This document shows, piece after piece, positions 21,315 to 33,897 of a stretch of DNA of 64,000 nucleotides. The stretch is taken from positions 434,001-498,000 of the forward strand of contig CP102060.1 in NCBI GenBank assembly GCA_024579835.1. Reading direction: 5' to 3'. Below the pieces are notes generated by a model, which had not been told where the DNA came from, searched no databases, and saw only the letters and a list, made by a program, of their open reading frames with translations. Both the position numbers and the translations under genes were made by a program. Origin of the DNA: Clostridiaceae bacterium HFYG-1003. GTDB lineage: Bacteria > Bacillota > Clostridia > Clostridiales > Clostridiaceae. Numbering within the stretch: the stretch's first letter is position 1; each line of letters begins with the position of its first letter.

Positions 21315-21553
21315 ATAAAAAAGCTCCGTCTCGGATATAGAGACGAAGTCATGCGCGGTACCACTCTAGTTAAACAACAGGGTTGTTTCACTCTATTCCC
21401 TTCACGCGGGTTTGCGGATCCCCATTGCCTGGGACCATCTCCACCGGCGAGTTCAGGATTTTAGCCACACCCTGTCGCACCGACCCAGGGCTCTCTTTGG
21501 TGGTTTCAATTCTTACTGCTCCGATTTCAGCGATGTTGATGATATGGAATCTA
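21315..21553 (-). promoter_or_regulatory. T-box leader of leuS (Leu specifier)
   Basis: In Stem I, ATCGG pairs with CCGGT around a loop with an AGTA strand and GAACTCG, giving specifier CTC (Leu) at 21449-21451. The T-box motif AGTGGTACCGCG is at 21354-21365. The terminator CTTCGTCTC/GAGACGGAG plus TTTTTTATTT lies at about 21315-21350. Expected behaviour is readthrough when tRNA-Leu is uncharged. Confidence 0.92.
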
Positions 21554-28859: not shown

Positions 28860-28893
28860 AAACCGTTGTCCTTTCGGACAACTGGTTTTTTCT
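28860..28893 (+). terminator. Terminator after the MFS gene
   Basis: AACC-TTGTCC stem with TTTC loop, GGACAA-GGTT (one internal mismatch), followed by TTTTTTC, starting right at the MFS stop. Confidence 0.8.
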
Positions 28894-28908: not shown

Positions 28909-29231
28909 TATAATTAATTCGAATGGTTCTGCAGGCATTATGAAGCCGGTGGCTGGACCGAACAGTCCGGTGACTTGCTTTCATGGCAAGGGCAGGACCT
29001 GTTGGTCCGAACAAGCAGAGAATATGCGTACCAAAATCATAGGAATGCCTGAACCGGCGGACGGCAGGTCCCCTGGAAAGAGCCAACAAGCAGTACAAAA
29101 TAACGATCAGATCAGATGAAAGGAAGTGGGAGCTCGTGGATAGTGGGCCTGGCAGTAATCAACGGAACATAATCAGCACGGGAGGCTCGCACAGCAATCC
29201 TCCCGGTTAATAGTATCGAAGGAGGAATGTT
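28909..29231 (+). ncRNA. Long structured leader before the MgtE_N/CBS gene, candidate riboswitch
   Basis: A TATAAT at 28909-28914 starts a leader of about 310 nt with no credible ORF. A long closing stem is visible: GGTT (28925-28928) + CAGGCATT (28932-28939) + ATGA (28940-28943) pair with TCAT (29037-29040) + AATGCCTG (29044-29051) + AACC (29052-29055), with 3-nt bulges. Inside are hairpins CTTGC/GCAAG and GGACC/GGTCC. Downstream, CCTCCCG (29199-29205) can pair with CGGGAGG (29179-29185) or with the ribosome binding site GGAGG (29221-29225). I do not recognise it as an M-box or other known class. The downstream gene suggests a metal or Mg link, but that is inference. Confidence 0.5.
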
Positions 29232-30503
29232 ATGGAACGACTGAACCTGATCTACTTCTCATCCATCCTGAATCGTCCCATCAAGGATGAAACGGATGAT
29301 ACGGTGGGCATCCTGAAAGACATCTACATCAACCGCGGACAGGGCTATCCCAAGGCCATCGGCTACAAAGTCGACAAGTCCGGGGATATCTACAATTACG
29401 AGTTCAAGGACATCGAATTTTACGAGGATTCCCATGGTCGGGTGTCCATCGAGGTCCGGGGAGCCCGGGACATCATCCCGCAGAGCTTCTCGTTTCTGAT
29501 TTCAAAAGACATCCTGGACAAGGAAGTGGTTGACGTCAACGGCAAGCGCAGTTTCAAGGTGCATGATGTCCGCATGGTCCAGCTGGACGACGGACTGCGG
29601 CTTTTGGCCATCGACAAGTCCAGAAACGGGTGGGCCCGGCGCAACGGCCTCTCGACCCTGATGAAGGGCTGGAACAAGGTGTCGGGCCAGTCGACCAGTG
29701 AATCCCTGATTCTGTGGGATGACGTGGAAAGCCTGAAGGAATCGAAGAACCTGAAGGATACGCTGAAACTCAGCGTACCTTACCAGGAGCTGTCCACGCT
29801 GCATCCGGCGGATCTGGCCGATGTTCTGGAAGAGGTCGAATCCCATTACCGCAATCTGGTGTTTGAGACGCTGGATGAGGAACTGGCGGCCGATACCCTG
29901 GAAGAAATCGAAGCCCCCGGTGTTCAGGCCGAGATCCTGTCAGCCATGTCGGAAACCAAAGCGCAGGAAATACTCGAAATGATTCCCAATGATGAAATCG
30001 CCGAAATTCTTGAGGAAATGGACGACGAGGCCAAGGCAAAGATCCTGTCCAACCTGGTCTATGACGATGCCACGGAAGTTCAGGAAATTTTATCTTATTC
30101 CGATGAGGAAGCCGGCTCCATTATGGCCAAGGAATTCCTGTCATTTCTTGATTCGCTGACCGTTCGGGAGGCTCGGGAGATTATCCGCGTGCTGTCCGAC
30201 GAATACGATTCAGACGAAATGTACTACATATTTGTCACCGACCAGATGGGCGAACTCATGGGCTTCATCTCCATGAGCGACCTGATTCAGAATGCGGACG
30301 ACGCGCTGCTGCGGGATATCATGAACACCCGGGTGGAGGATGTCAACGCCAGGGATCATGCGGAAACCGCGGTGGATCTGGCGATCAAGTACGAACTGCT
30401 TCAGATCCCGGTGGTGGACGATGACAACAAGCTGGTGGGGGTCATCAATATCCACGATGTCATTGATGAGTTCCTGGCACCGCTGTGGAAGCGGAAAAAC
30501 TGA
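29232..30503 (+). CDS. PRC-barrel / MgtE N-terminal / CBS-domain protein without a membrane channel
   Basis: 423 residues, cytoplasmic. Residues about 1-135 form PRC-barrel-like beta segments. About 175-290 is the helical MgtE_N superhelix, with DLADVLEEV and repeated EIL.M motifs. About 290-415 is a CBS pair (HDVIDEF at the end). The MgtE transmembrane domain that would follow is absent: the protein ends in APLWKRKN. It may be a Mg2+- or nucleotide-sensing regulator rather than a transporter. GGAGG lies six bases before ATG 29232. Its stop overlaps queG. Confidence 0.83.
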   Translation: MERLNLIYFSSILNRPIKDETDDTVGILKDIYINRGQGYPKAIGYKVDKSGDIYNYEFKDIEFYEDSHGRVSIEVRGARDIIPQSFSFLISKDILDKEVVDVNGKRSFKVHDVRMVQLDDGLRLLAIDKSRNGWARRNGLSTLMKGWNKVSGQSTSESLILWDDVESLKESKNLKDTLKLSVPYQELSTLHPADLADVLEEVESHYRNLVFETLDEELAADTLEEIEAPGVQAEILSAMSETKAQEILEMIPNDEIAEILEEMDDEAKAKILSNLVYDDATEVQEILSYSDEEAGSIMAKEFLSFLDSLTVREAREIIRVLSDEYDSDEMYYIFVTDQMGELMGFISMSDLIQNADDALLRDIMNTRVEDVNARDHAETAVDLAIKYELLQIPVVDDDNKLVGVINIHDVIDEFLAPLWKRKN

Positions 30504-31486
30504 TGAATGATCAATATGCCGGCGATTCTGATACGGTCCGGGACTTGAAGGCGCATATCGAAAGCCTGGGCCTGGATCTGTACGGCTTTGCCAGCGGGGA
30601 GCGGATCCGGCACTTTCAGCCGTACTATGACGAGCGGCCCCGCGAGACCGTCTCGCCATTTGAAAGCGGAGACCAGGAGAGCCGCTGCCAGCTCAGCGGA
30701 TCGTTTCTGTCGGTCGCATTTCCCTATGCCCATGAGCTGACCTGGCCCCGGGATGCCCATTTTTCCGTCTATGTGAGGGGCAGGGATTATCATCAGGTCG
30801 CGGCCGGGTATCTGGAATCCATCTGCTCATTTCTCCGGGAACGGGGATATTCGGCGCAAGCCTATGTGGATTCCAATGAACTGCCCGAGCGCCTCATTGC
30901 CGCCCTGGCAGGACTGGGCTGGCTGGGCCGCAGCGGCCTTTTGATCACGCGCCGCTACGGCACCTATGTGTTTCTGGGAGAAATCCGTACGAATCTGTCG
31001 CTGCCGCCCAGCCAGACGTTCGTCGCGCCGGGGGACTACAGCGCCTGCGGTGACTGCACCCGCTGTCTGAAGGCCTGTCCGGTCGGCATTCTGGGTCCCC
31101 GCTACGTGGAAACCAGGCGCTGCCTGTCTTCTGTAACCCAGCAGAAGACTCATTCCCCGGAGGAACTGCTCCTCCTGGACGGACGGCTGTTCGGCTGCGA
31201 TACCTGTCAGCGAGTCTGTCCCTGGAATCAGGAGAAAGCCGGACTGGGTCTTGCTCCGTTCAAACCATATGACCATATGGTCCGGCCCGATCTGGAACAG
31301 CTGGTTCATCTGTCCAAAGCGGAGTTTCGCAGCCTGTATGCTCCCACCAGCGCGGGCTGGAGAGGAAAGGCAGTACTGGAAAAAAACGCCCTGGCCGCGC
31401 TCCATCGCCTGGGACGACTGCCGCAGGAACTTGACCCGGCTTCCCCGCTGGTCCGGGCAGTTTATGATAAACTAAAAGAGATTTAA
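30503..31486 (+). CDS. queG: Epoxyqueuosine reductase
   Basis: A 327-residue cobalamin-dependent enzyme catalysing the last step of queuosine synthesis on tRNA. Two ferredoxin-type [4Fe-4S] clusters are encoded by CGDCTRCLKACP near residue 184 and CDTCQRVCPWN near residue 233. The N-terminal part contains the conserved GLDLYGF and GWLGRSGLLI segments. The C-terminus is shorter than in forms that carry HEAT repeats. ATG 30503 overlaps the upstream stop. It is part of the overlapping 29.2-33.9 kb operon. Confidence 0.9.
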   Translation: MNDQYAGDSDTVRDLKAHIESLGLDLYGFASGERIRHFQPYYDERPRETVSPFESGDQESRCQLSGSFLSVAFPYAHELTWPRDAHFSVYVRGRDYHQVAAGYLESICSFLRERGYSAQAYVDSNELPERLIAALAGLGWLGRSGLLITRRYGTYVFLGEIRTNLSLPPSQTFVAPGDYSACGDCTRCLKACPVGILGPRYVETRRCLSSVTQQKTHSPEELLLLDGRLFGCDTCQRVCPWNQEKAGLGLAPFKPYDHMVRPDLEQLVHLSKAEFRSLYAPTSAGWRGKAVLEKNALAALHRLGRLPQELDPASPLVRAVYDKLKEI

Positions 31487-31520
31487 CGCCCGTCGTTCGG
31501 GCTGACAAAGAGGTAAACCA

Positions 31521-32249
31521 ATGAAATTACTGGATCTATTAGCCCTGCTGCCGCAGGGACTGCAGCTGAAAATTGCCAATGCCTATATCGATCGCGAACT
31601 GAAGCGCAAGGTGAAACTGACCGTGCGCGGGCAACATCATCTGGATAACCTGCAATCGCCCTGTCTGTTTGTCGCCAACCATTTGTCCAATCTGGACGGA
31701 ATGGTCCTCATGCGTTTTTTGAAAAAACAGTTTGATCCGCATTTTGTGGCAGGCATCAAACTGTCCAATGACCGGTTTACGAATCTGTTCAAGTCCCTGA
31801 TCAAGACCATCAACATCAAGCCCAATTCGGCAGATCTGGAATCGCTCAAGACCATTATCAACACGCTGAAGAACGGCGAATCGGTGATGATTTTCCCGGA
31901 AGGAACCCGTTCGAGAACCGGTTCAATGATCGAGGCGAAAAAGGGAATTACCCTGATTGCCCGCATGGCAAAAGTACCCATCGTCCCCATCGCCCTGATG
32001 GGGACAGAGCAGGTCGTACCGATTCATCCATCCGGTCGGATGGACCAGGAGCGGATTCATCCCGGCACGGTGGAAATCGTGGTAGGCGAGCCGTTCCATC
32101 TGACGAAGAAGAGACCGGCGGAAGATAAGCACGAGTACGATGATAGGGCGCTCCGGGATATTATGAACCACATCGCCGCCAACCTGAGACCGGAGTATCG
32201 CGGCGTTTATGACGGAGTGGTCGATGCGGATTCGACACAGGTCGAGTAA
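31521..32249 (+). CDS. plsC: 1-acyl-sn-glycerol-3-phosphate acyltransferase
   Basis: A 242-residue membrane-associated acyltransferase making phosphatidic acid. The catalytic NHxxxxD motif is NHLSNLD near residue 53, and FPEGTRSR near residue 124 binds the acceptor phosphate. The N-terminus is amphipathic. It starts 34 bases after queG behind AGAGGTAAACC, and its stop overlaps nth by one base. Confidence 0.87.
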   Translation: MKLLDLLALLPQGLQLKIANAYIDRELKRKVKLTVRGQHHLDNLQSPCLFVANHLSNLDGMVLMRFLKKQFDPHFVAGIKLSNDRFTNLFKSLIKTINIKPNSADLESLKTIINTLKNGESVMIFPEGTRSRTGSMIEAKKGITLIARMAKVPIVPIALMGTEQVVPIHPSGRMDQERIHPGTVEIVVGEPFHLTKKRPAEDKHEYDDRALRDIMNHIAANLRPEYRGVYDGVVDADSTQVE

Positions 32250-32953
32250 TGCGCAAGAAGGAGAAGGAAATTATCCGGTTGCTGCAGGAACGCTATCCCG
32301 ACGCGGCCTGCGAGCTGATCCACGAGACGCCGTTTCAGCTGCTGGTGTCCACCGTACTGTCAGCTCAGACCACAGATGTTCAGGTCAACAAAGTCATGCC
32401 GCCGCTGTATGAAGTGCTGCCGGGGCCGGAGGACTGGCTGAACCTGTCCCAGGAAGAAATTGAAGAACGGATTCGCACCATCGGCCTGTATAAGAGCAAA
32501 GCCAAAAACCTCTACCGGCTGGTCCGCGATTTGATTGACCGGTTTGACGGACAGGTGCCCCGGACCATGGAGGAGCTGATCACGCTGCCGGGAGTCGGCC
32601 GTAAAACCGCCAACGTCGTATTGTCCAATGCCTATGGCGTACCGGGCATTGCGGTGGATACCCACGTCTTCCGGCTGGCCAACCGGATTGGCATCACGGA
32701 TGAAAAAGATGTGGAAAAAACAGAGCAGGCGCTCATGAAAGCCCTGGATAAAAACGTCTGGATCATGGCCCACCACCTGCTGATTTTTCATGGCCGGCGC
32801 ACCTGCTTTGCCCGCAACCCGCAATGTCATGAATGCACCATACAGGACTACTGCAAATATTATAAAGACATCACCCGCCAGAGCAAACCGCGCCGCCTGA
32901 AAAAAACGCAGGCAACCCAGGATCTGGCGGAAGAAGCAAAGGAGCTACTATGA
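32249..32953 (+). CDS. nth: Endonuclease III
   Basis: A 234-residue DNA glycosylase/AP lyase for oxidised pyrimidines. The helix-hairpin-helix is LPGVGRKTANVV near residue 113, including the catalytic Lys. The catalytic Asp is in VDTHVFR about 18 residues on. The C-terminal [4Fe-4S] loop has the standard C-x6-C-x2-C-x5-C spacing (CFARNPQC HEC TIQDYC). Start and stop overlap the flanking genes. Confidence 0.95.
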   Translation: MRKKEKEIIRLLQERYPDAACELIHETPFQLLVSTVLSAQTTDVQVNKVMPPLYEVLPGPEDWLNLSQEEIEERIRTIGLYKSKAKNLYRLVRDLIDRFDGQVPRTMEELITLPGVGRKTANVVLSNAYGVPGIAVDTHVFRLANRIGITDEKDVEKTEQALMKALDKNVWIMAHHLLIFHGRRTCFARNPQCHECTIQDYCKYYKDITRQSKPRRLKKTQATQDLAEEAKELL

Positions 32954-33897
32954 AGATCGGGGTATTGATGGGTGGCATCTCCACCGAACGGGAAGTGTCC
33001 CTGAAAACCGGGGAAAACATGTTCAACAGTATCGACCGGACCAGACATGAGGCGAGCCGCATCATCCTGGATTCCAAGGACGATGTCATGGAAAAATGCC
33101 AGGGCATTGATTTTGCCCTGCTGGCCCTGCACGGCAAGTACGGCGAAGACGGGCAGATCCAGAGCATTCTCGATGCCATGGGCCTCCCTTATTCCGGATC
33201 AGATGTCAAAAGCTCAGCCATTGCCATGGACAAGGATCTGTCCAAGGTCATCCTGCGCGGCCGCGGCGTTAATACGGCAGACTGGATTGTCATTCACAAT
33301 GAGCAGGAGATTGCCGCACTGGCAGCTCCCTTCCTGAAACACAAGAAAAAAGTGGTCGTAAAACCGAACAGCGGGGGTTCTTCGGTCATGACGTTCATCT
33401 GCGACGAGGAATCCGTCATGGCGGACTGCATCAGGAAAGCGCTGCTGATCGATCACGAAGTGATGGTGGAAGAATTTATTTCGGGCGTGGAGATCACCGT
33501 GCCGATCCTCGATGATGAGGTACTGCCAACCATTCAGATCAGCTCGCCCACCGGATTTTTCGATTACACCGCCAAGTATCAGGATGAAGCCCACGGCGGA
33601 GCCACGGAAGTCATCATCCGGCTGGACGATGAGCTGCAGCAGCAGGTGAATCAGATGGCACTGGCCACTTACCACGCCCTCAAGTGTTCTGTATATGGCC
33701 GGGTGGATTTCATTCTGCATGACCGCACGCCCTATGTTCTGGAAATCAACACCCTTCCCGGCATGACGGCCACATCGCTGATTCCGCGCAGCGCGAAGAG
33801 CATCGGACTGGGTTACCAGGAACTGGTGGAGAAGATCATACAGGTTTCCCTGGCCCGGCGTGATTTCGAGCGCTCCCTGGACACGCGGGAGATCTAA
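32950..33897 (+). CDS. ddl: D-alanine-D-alanine ligase
   Basis: A 315-residue ATP-grasp enzyme forming the D-Ala-D-Ala dipeptide for peptidoglycan. The N-terminal GGISTEREVSLKTG segment, HGKYGEDG, the ATP-grasp VVKPNSGGSS strand near residue 140, and the metal-binding EINTLPGMT near residue 270 are all present. It is slightly short compared with typical forms but complete. ATG 32950 overlaps the nth stop (ATGA). It is last in the operon, with a terminator 80 bases downstream. Confidence 0.93.
   Translation: MKIGVLMGGISTEREVSLKTGENMFNSIDRTRHEASRIILDSKDDVMEKCQGIDFALLALHGKYGEDGQIQSILDAMGLPYSGSDVKSSAIAMDKDLSKVILRGRGVNTADWIVIHNEQEIAALAAPFLKHKKKVVVKPNSGGSSVMTFICDEESVMADCIRKALLIDHEVMVEEFISGVEITVPILDDEVLPTIQISSPTGFFDYTAKYQDEAHGGATEVIIRLDDELQQQVNQMALATYHALKCSVYGRVDFILHDRTPYVLEINTLPGMTATSLIPRSAKSIGLGYQELVEKIIQVSLARRDFERSLDTREI

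Follow-up and report, generated by a model that had tools for sequence, protein, structure and literature searches.

A probable leader-peptide-controlled ribosome-binding-site switch upstream of a clostridial MgtE_N/CBS gene

Introduction

Acidic and proline-containing peptides that destabilize the ribosome have been described as Mg2+ sensors in enterobacteria (PMC8092293, PMC11282234). In Salmonella mgtQ-mgtB, where the scheme has been proven with mutants, stems 1:2 and 3:4 form the off state, stem 2:3 forms the on state, and Asp2 and Glu5 of the leader peptide are needed (PMC8092293). In E. coli, low Mg2+ causes ribosomes to drop off at the EPDP sequence of MgtL (PMC11282234). In C. acetobutylicum, NrmT operons have been described in which an Nramp gene lies beside a member of the gene family considered here (PMC4072509).

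Here we analyze the leader of a gene for a soluble MgtE_N/CBS protein in a 64,000-nucleotide stretch of Clostridiaceae bacterium HFYG-1003 DNA, which we refer to as the window. Like mgtQ-mgtB, this leader and its relatives have a short uORF whose second residue is acidic, two alternative sets of predicted stems (1:2 plus 3:4, or 2:3), and a presumed translational output on a Mg2+ gene, whereas mgtQ has 8 codons, lies between operon genes, is enterobacterial, and has been tested with mutants (PMC8092293); the clostridial uORFs have about 11–60 codons and lie near the beginning of the transcript, in many cases downstream of an M-box. MgtL starts M-E-x-D-P, to which MEPLP, MEADP, and MEPDA are near relatives here, but the output of mgtL-mgtA is Rho-dependent transcription termination rather than a masked RBS (PMC11282234). 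The peptides are too short for descent to be read from them, and a separate origin from the enterobacterial leaders is likely. The likeness we claim is in the mode of working only.

With the M-box (RF00380) and the C. acetobutylicum NrmT operons, our locus shares the regulated gene family, membership in a Mg2+ regulon, and an M-box at about half of the relatives tested, but neither the window nor the rest of its genome has an M-box, and the description of the NrmT operons that we consulted mentions no uORF (PMC4072509). In M. tuberculosis, a conserved uORF (uORF2, Rv1805A) whose N-terminal proline is itself conserved likewise follows an M-box in a leader with an SD, an anti-SD, and an anti-anti-SD, but the switch there acts on the uORF itself and is Rho-dependent, and the peptide is said to be mycobacteria-specific (PMC12810186). 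The mgtE motif, a strong riboswitch candidate, also lies upstream of an mgtE gene with the SD in a stem; we rejected it as the identity of our leader because it is confined to Thioalkalivibrio and has another architecture, with no uORF described (PMC11109978). Our search of mainly open-access literature found no description of the uORF in Clostridia or Firmicutes.

Results

The first-pass annotation of this locus had pointed to CCTCCCG as able to pair either with CGGGAGG or with the GGAGG of the RBS; its sequences and coordinates were correct, and the mutual exclusivity of the two pairings exceeded that in 20/20 dinucleotide shuffles. The five-gene operon that it proposed, with a soluble MgtE_N/CBS protein as the first product, is plausible from the ORFs and Pfam (Table 1). 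The N-terminal and CBS portion of the MgtE model aligns with this protein at a score below the cut-off, a QueG-like gene is likewise downstream in the relative G052, and the regulated gene is not adjacent to a transporter gene. What the annotation overlooked is the uORF, the conserved input of the switch, which overlaps both arms and reaches its TAA shortly past arm 2. An AGG lies 15 nt ahead of the uORF start, as it does in relatives (AGGTGGTGA...ATG). On the other side of the leader, a hairpin resembling a terminator, T run included (window 28865-28890, + strand), directly 3′ of the upstream MFS gene divides that gene from the leader.

Table 1. Features of the leader and the genes that follow it (window coordinates)
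Feature	Position	Strand	Basis or remark
Likely leader promoter -10 box, TATAAT	28909..28914	+	Read directly; no good -35 seen; absent from the consensus-scan list
5′ structured element with 16-bp bulged closing stem	28925..29055	+	MFE fold, z -2.7; lineage-specific
uORF ribosome-binding region, AAAGGAAGTGGGAG	29119..29132	+	Sequence compared with relatives
Region 1, uORF start; pairs with arm 1 and flanks (29172-29192) in free RNA	29126..29141	+	Fold; swap test
Leader-peptide uORF, GTG start, (M)DSGPGSNQRNIISTGGSHSNPPG, TAA stop	29136..29210	+	Start motif in family leaders
Arm 1 (region 2), CGGGAGG; SD mimic, pairs with arm 2	29179..29185	+	
TCCTCC within the arm-2 region; pairs with SD	29198-29203	+	
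Arm 2 (region 3), CCTCCCG; anti-SD	29199..29205	+	
Main-gene SD (region 4), GGAGGA (GGAGG 29221-29225)	29221..29226	+	
Regulated gene, soluble PRC + MgtE_N + CBS protein	29232..30503	+	Pfam
Rest of presumed operon: QueG-like reductase, acyltransferase, endonuclease III, D-Ala-D-Ala ligase-like	30503..33897	+	ORFs, Pfam

Homologs of the regulated gene are present in 145/147 family genomes at E <= 1e-20, and we oriented 90 family leaders for a test of the uORF, with dinucleotide shuffles as controls; these ignore relatedness, and the motif extends across 23 genera and other families. A uORF beginning M-[DE]-x(1-3)-P and preceded by an SD is found in 87 of the 90 leaders, compared with 0.6 (maximum 3) in the shuffles, while control starts in the same test gave 5 (M-[KRNQ]) and 11 (M-[ILVF]). 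The same motif was found in 11/14 further members (shuffles 0), in 20/26 leaders of a second paralog group (shuffles 0.1), and in 19/32 loci that belong to other families within the class and phylum (shuffles 0.75). A strict DNA pattern for the uORF, searched over the whole class, was too narrow and matched 2/391 genomes. The window peptide begins (M)DSGPGSNQRN, and examples of other starts are MESGPRSGRTNLKKLN, MENGPYGGRC, MEGVPRIEK, MDSGPVSKQDW, MDTDPDGRC, MDPVPRAGRK, and, in L004, MEPLPDSRKKE. Past the first residues, both the sequence and the length of the uORF are highly variable.

The codons at the uORF start carry two kinds of signal. Across 86 uORFs, codon 2 is GAA in 40, GAG in 28, GAT in 15, and GAC in 3; the GA- part belongs to the pattern by which these uORFs were selected, the third base does not, and its freedom fits selection on the acidic residue. 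A Pro codon is present in 86/86, but it too is part of the selection pattern and so is not independent evidence. The uORFs that lack Gly-Pro start more acidic, as in MDDYDTDKCD and MDADSDDTD. Codon 6 begins mostly with C even though it encodes several different residues, which indicates a constraint at the RNA level too, and Gly-Pro and the C that follows may be kept partly for RNA pairing. As in leaders of the mgtL/mgtQ type, then, a short uORF with an SD lies upstream of a Mg2+ gene, the link to Mg2+ being made through M-boxes, and the peptide has N-terminal acidic residue(s) with or near a proline, with the difference that MgtL and MgtQ have two acidic residues and many clostridial peptides have one.

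An M-box (RF00380) is present at 15/39, 13/20, and 14/20 of the relatives' loci in three sets (42/79 together), and its occurrence at about half of the tested loci places the regulated gene in the Mg2+ regulon. In the M-box leaders that we read (e.g., L014 and L022), a terminator-like hairpin and T run come after the aptamer, and next come the uORF and the RBS switch, which, being downstream of the M-box terminator, look like a second layer. Nramp genes adjoin the regulated gene in L017, L021, and L025, as checked with Pfam for L017 and L021. The window's genome, which is 97% complete, has no M-box, no Nramp match, and hence no NrmT-type pairing of Nramp with an MgtE-like fragment gene, and PF01769, the MgtE transporter domain, has no match in it either; in this genome the uORF switch stands alone. 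The first-pass annotation could not match the leader to the M-box, and this is borne out, there being no RF00380 match in the window or the source genome. A degenerate M-box in the leader was rejected as well, since a permissive Rfam scan and the M-box search of the source genome were negative.

Acidic uORFs are also found at M-boxes before other genes. Among 14 such loci in the family, 7 have an M-[DE] uORF with Pro, Asp, or Glu close behind (shuffles 0.46), including MEADPS before an Nramp gene, MDDGPADS before an ABC-type permease gene, and MEPDASN and MEDGPADN before magnesium-type P-type ATPase genes, and a looser acidic start, MDDGSSN, precedes an MgtE-type protein. By locus, acidic uORFs after M-boxes before other Mg2+ genes, Nramp and mgtA-type ATPases included, were seen at L187, L188, L200, L202, L207, L209, and L211, with the starts MEADP, MDGDA, MDDGP, MEDGP, MEPDA, and MDSDS. 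In the source genome of the window, no convincing acidic uORF accompanies the P-type ATPase genes.

The pairing of the arms was examined with a swap test, in which each leader's own segments were paired and compared with pairings to segments from other genera. Own segments paired better than swapped ones for arm 1 with arm 2 (-12.0 versus -9.4 kcal/mol; 18/23 genera; p = 3e-4), for arm 2 with the SD (-9.4 versus -7.9 kcal/mol; 18/23 genera; p = 1e-3), and for the uORF start with arm 1 (-15.3 versus -13.3 kcal/mol; 18/23 genera; p = 0.007). Counts of double changes within genera are noisy, with 22-25% of cells broken, and add little, so we relied on the between-genus test. The translational RBS switch layout that had been proposed before the MgtE_N/CBS gene therefore holds up: the switch is conserved, and its arms co-vary between genera.

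The free RNA of the window is predicted to fold with the uORF start paired to arm 1 and its flanks and with arm 2 paired to the SD, at -39.4 kcal/mol with the SD hidden versus -29.1 kcal/mol with arm 1 and arm 2 forced together, a cost of 10 kcal/mol. When the uORF start region is occupied, the on state (-20.6 kcal/mol) and the off state (-20.7 kcal/mol) are balanced, which makes this a switch that a ribosome can tip. We also folded 75 leaders with a ribosome footprint placed codon by codon. A P site at codons 1-10 raised SD accessibility, one at codons 13-25 lowered it, and one at the last codons raised it again, arm 2 being covered, with effect sizes that are modest to small throughout; the computed curve is that expected of an attenuator. 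In these models an early-held ribosome is the best on-state, and because arm 2 is covered and the SD set free by a ribosome at the last codons, what complete translation yields would depend on how long the ribosome resides there. Alternative RNA structures tied to the position of the uORF ribosome, as in leaders of the mgtL/mgtQ type, are thus found here in computed form. A scheme in which the gene is switched off by a ribosome that reaches the uORF stop and masks arm 1 was unsupported, as a ribosome in that position is more apt to sit over arm 2, leaving the SD free.

Upstream of the uORF, the bulged 16-bp stem that the first-pass annotation had drawn (28925-28943 with 29037-29055) is part of the MFE structure, where its pairs fall into three runs (5, 6, and 5), and the 142-nt 5′ element folds at -52.2 kcal/mol (z = -2.7). 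In a DNA search of 147 family genomes, this element matched nothing except itself, a DNA search of a plasmid collection with the leader found nothing, and the stem is missing from G052 (L003), the nearest relative that has an orthologue. Against Rfam, the leader has no gathering-level match to any known class, and at E <= 10 it has only a chance snoRNA match.

Discussion

The uORF, the arms, their conservation, and their link to M-box genes are established here by computation, and we think that this leader is probably a leader-peptide-controlled translational RBS switch for Mg2+ homeostasis, similar to mgtQ-mgtB and mgtL, rather than an aptamer riboswitch. When the RNA is free, the uORF start would hide arm 1 (helix 1:2) and arm 2 would hide the SD (helix 3:4), so that the gene is off. 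If a ribosome were held at the first codons (Met-Asp/Glu-x-Gly-Pro) or fell off there, helix 1:2 would open, and the freed arm 1 would capture arm 2 (helix 2:3) and leave the SD free, so that the gene is on, whereas a ribosome advancing over arm 1 would leave arm 2 on the SD and the gene off. The likely signal is low Mg2+, under which the 70S ribosome would be weakened and acidic/proline starts would abort translation (intrinsic ribosome destabilization). From the mgtQ-mgtB scheme and the EPDP drop-off of MgtL, we infer that low Mg2+ stalls or drops ribosomes at M-[DE]-x-G-P and turns the gene on. On this reading the uORF would be translated, ribosomes would abort at codons 2-5, and the gene would respond to Mg2+ in the direction just given. 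Several points weigh against it: the folding effects are modest, and the result of complete translation turns on ribosome residence; the uORF here has a GTG start and extends across both arms; Gly-Pro and the following C may serve RNA pairing in part; many clostridial peptides have a single acidic residue; the regulated gene has no transporter gene beside it; and the G052 uORF has no stop before the gene.

The observation behind the first-pass annotation is confirmed, and its interpretation is supported in part and needs changing. It had called the leader a candidate riboswitch and had taken a lack of conserved stems in related leaders as telling against this; such a lack is what we find for the 5′ stem and not for the RBS switch. 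In an aptamer riboswitch, a ligand bound by the 28925-29055 element would steer the RBS switch. The stable fold of the element, its 16-bp stem, and its place in a long leader favor an aptamer, but a metabolite riboswitch should keep its aptamer among related leaders and this element is unique, without an Rfam match, a homologue in the 147 family genomes searched, or a counterpart in G052, while the downstream switch is kept in relatives that lack it. We therefore regard an aptamer riboswitch as very unlikely and find no support for an aptamer role of the 5′ stem, which may instead stabilize the mRNA or have a strain-specific role.

The uORF itself could be read in other ways. That its codons are kept for pairing (CCTC with arm 1), with the peptide irrelevant and any ribosome traffic setting the switch, would account for the C-initial codon 6 and for the co-variation of the uORF start with arm 1, but we think this improbable because codon 2 is acidic with a free third base, divergent leaders replace Gly-Pro by more acidic residues, and acidic starts recur before other Mg2+ genes. 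Sensing of prolyl-tRNA, EF-P, or release-factor supply instead of Mg2+ is suggested by the constant Pro codon, itself part of the selection, and is unlikely, since there is usually a single Pro codon, position 2 is acidic with the same constancy, the M-box neighbors point to Mg2+, and the Pro codon did not matter in mgtQ (PMC8092293). Least likely of all is that the uORF encodes a small protein with its own function or does no more than supply the main gene with ribosomes by translational coupling; the G052 uORF is in frame with the main gene, and the conserved M-box uORF of M. tuberculosis is as yet without a clear role (PMC12810186), but clostridial uORFs vary widely past their first residues, and the arms overlap or closely follow them.

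We rate it an even call whether the leader-peptide switch is part of something broader, in which Firmicutes widely use ribosome-destabilizing nascent peptides as a second, ribosome-based Mg2+ sensor that would lie beneath the M-box at several Mg2+ genes (MgtE fragment, Nramp, mgtA, mgtE) and act by itself where, as in this genome, there is no M-box. This would be a phylum-wide counterpart of mgtL/mgtQ. If so, Clostridia and other Firmicutes would read Mg2+ twice, through RNA folding and through ribosome stability, and the long spacers between M-box terminators and genes would be explained. The uORFs would then also offer a natural set of peptides, of Gly-Pro and acid-rich types, for learning which N-termini destabilize Gram-positive ribosomes.

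Two further observations concern other features. The G052 uORF (102 nt upstream of the gene on the reverse complement of L003) could, by running on in frame without a stop, give an N-terminally extended main protein. Elsewhere in the window, a T-box leader (RF00230) is found at 21336-21539 on the - strand with a score of 113.5 bits.
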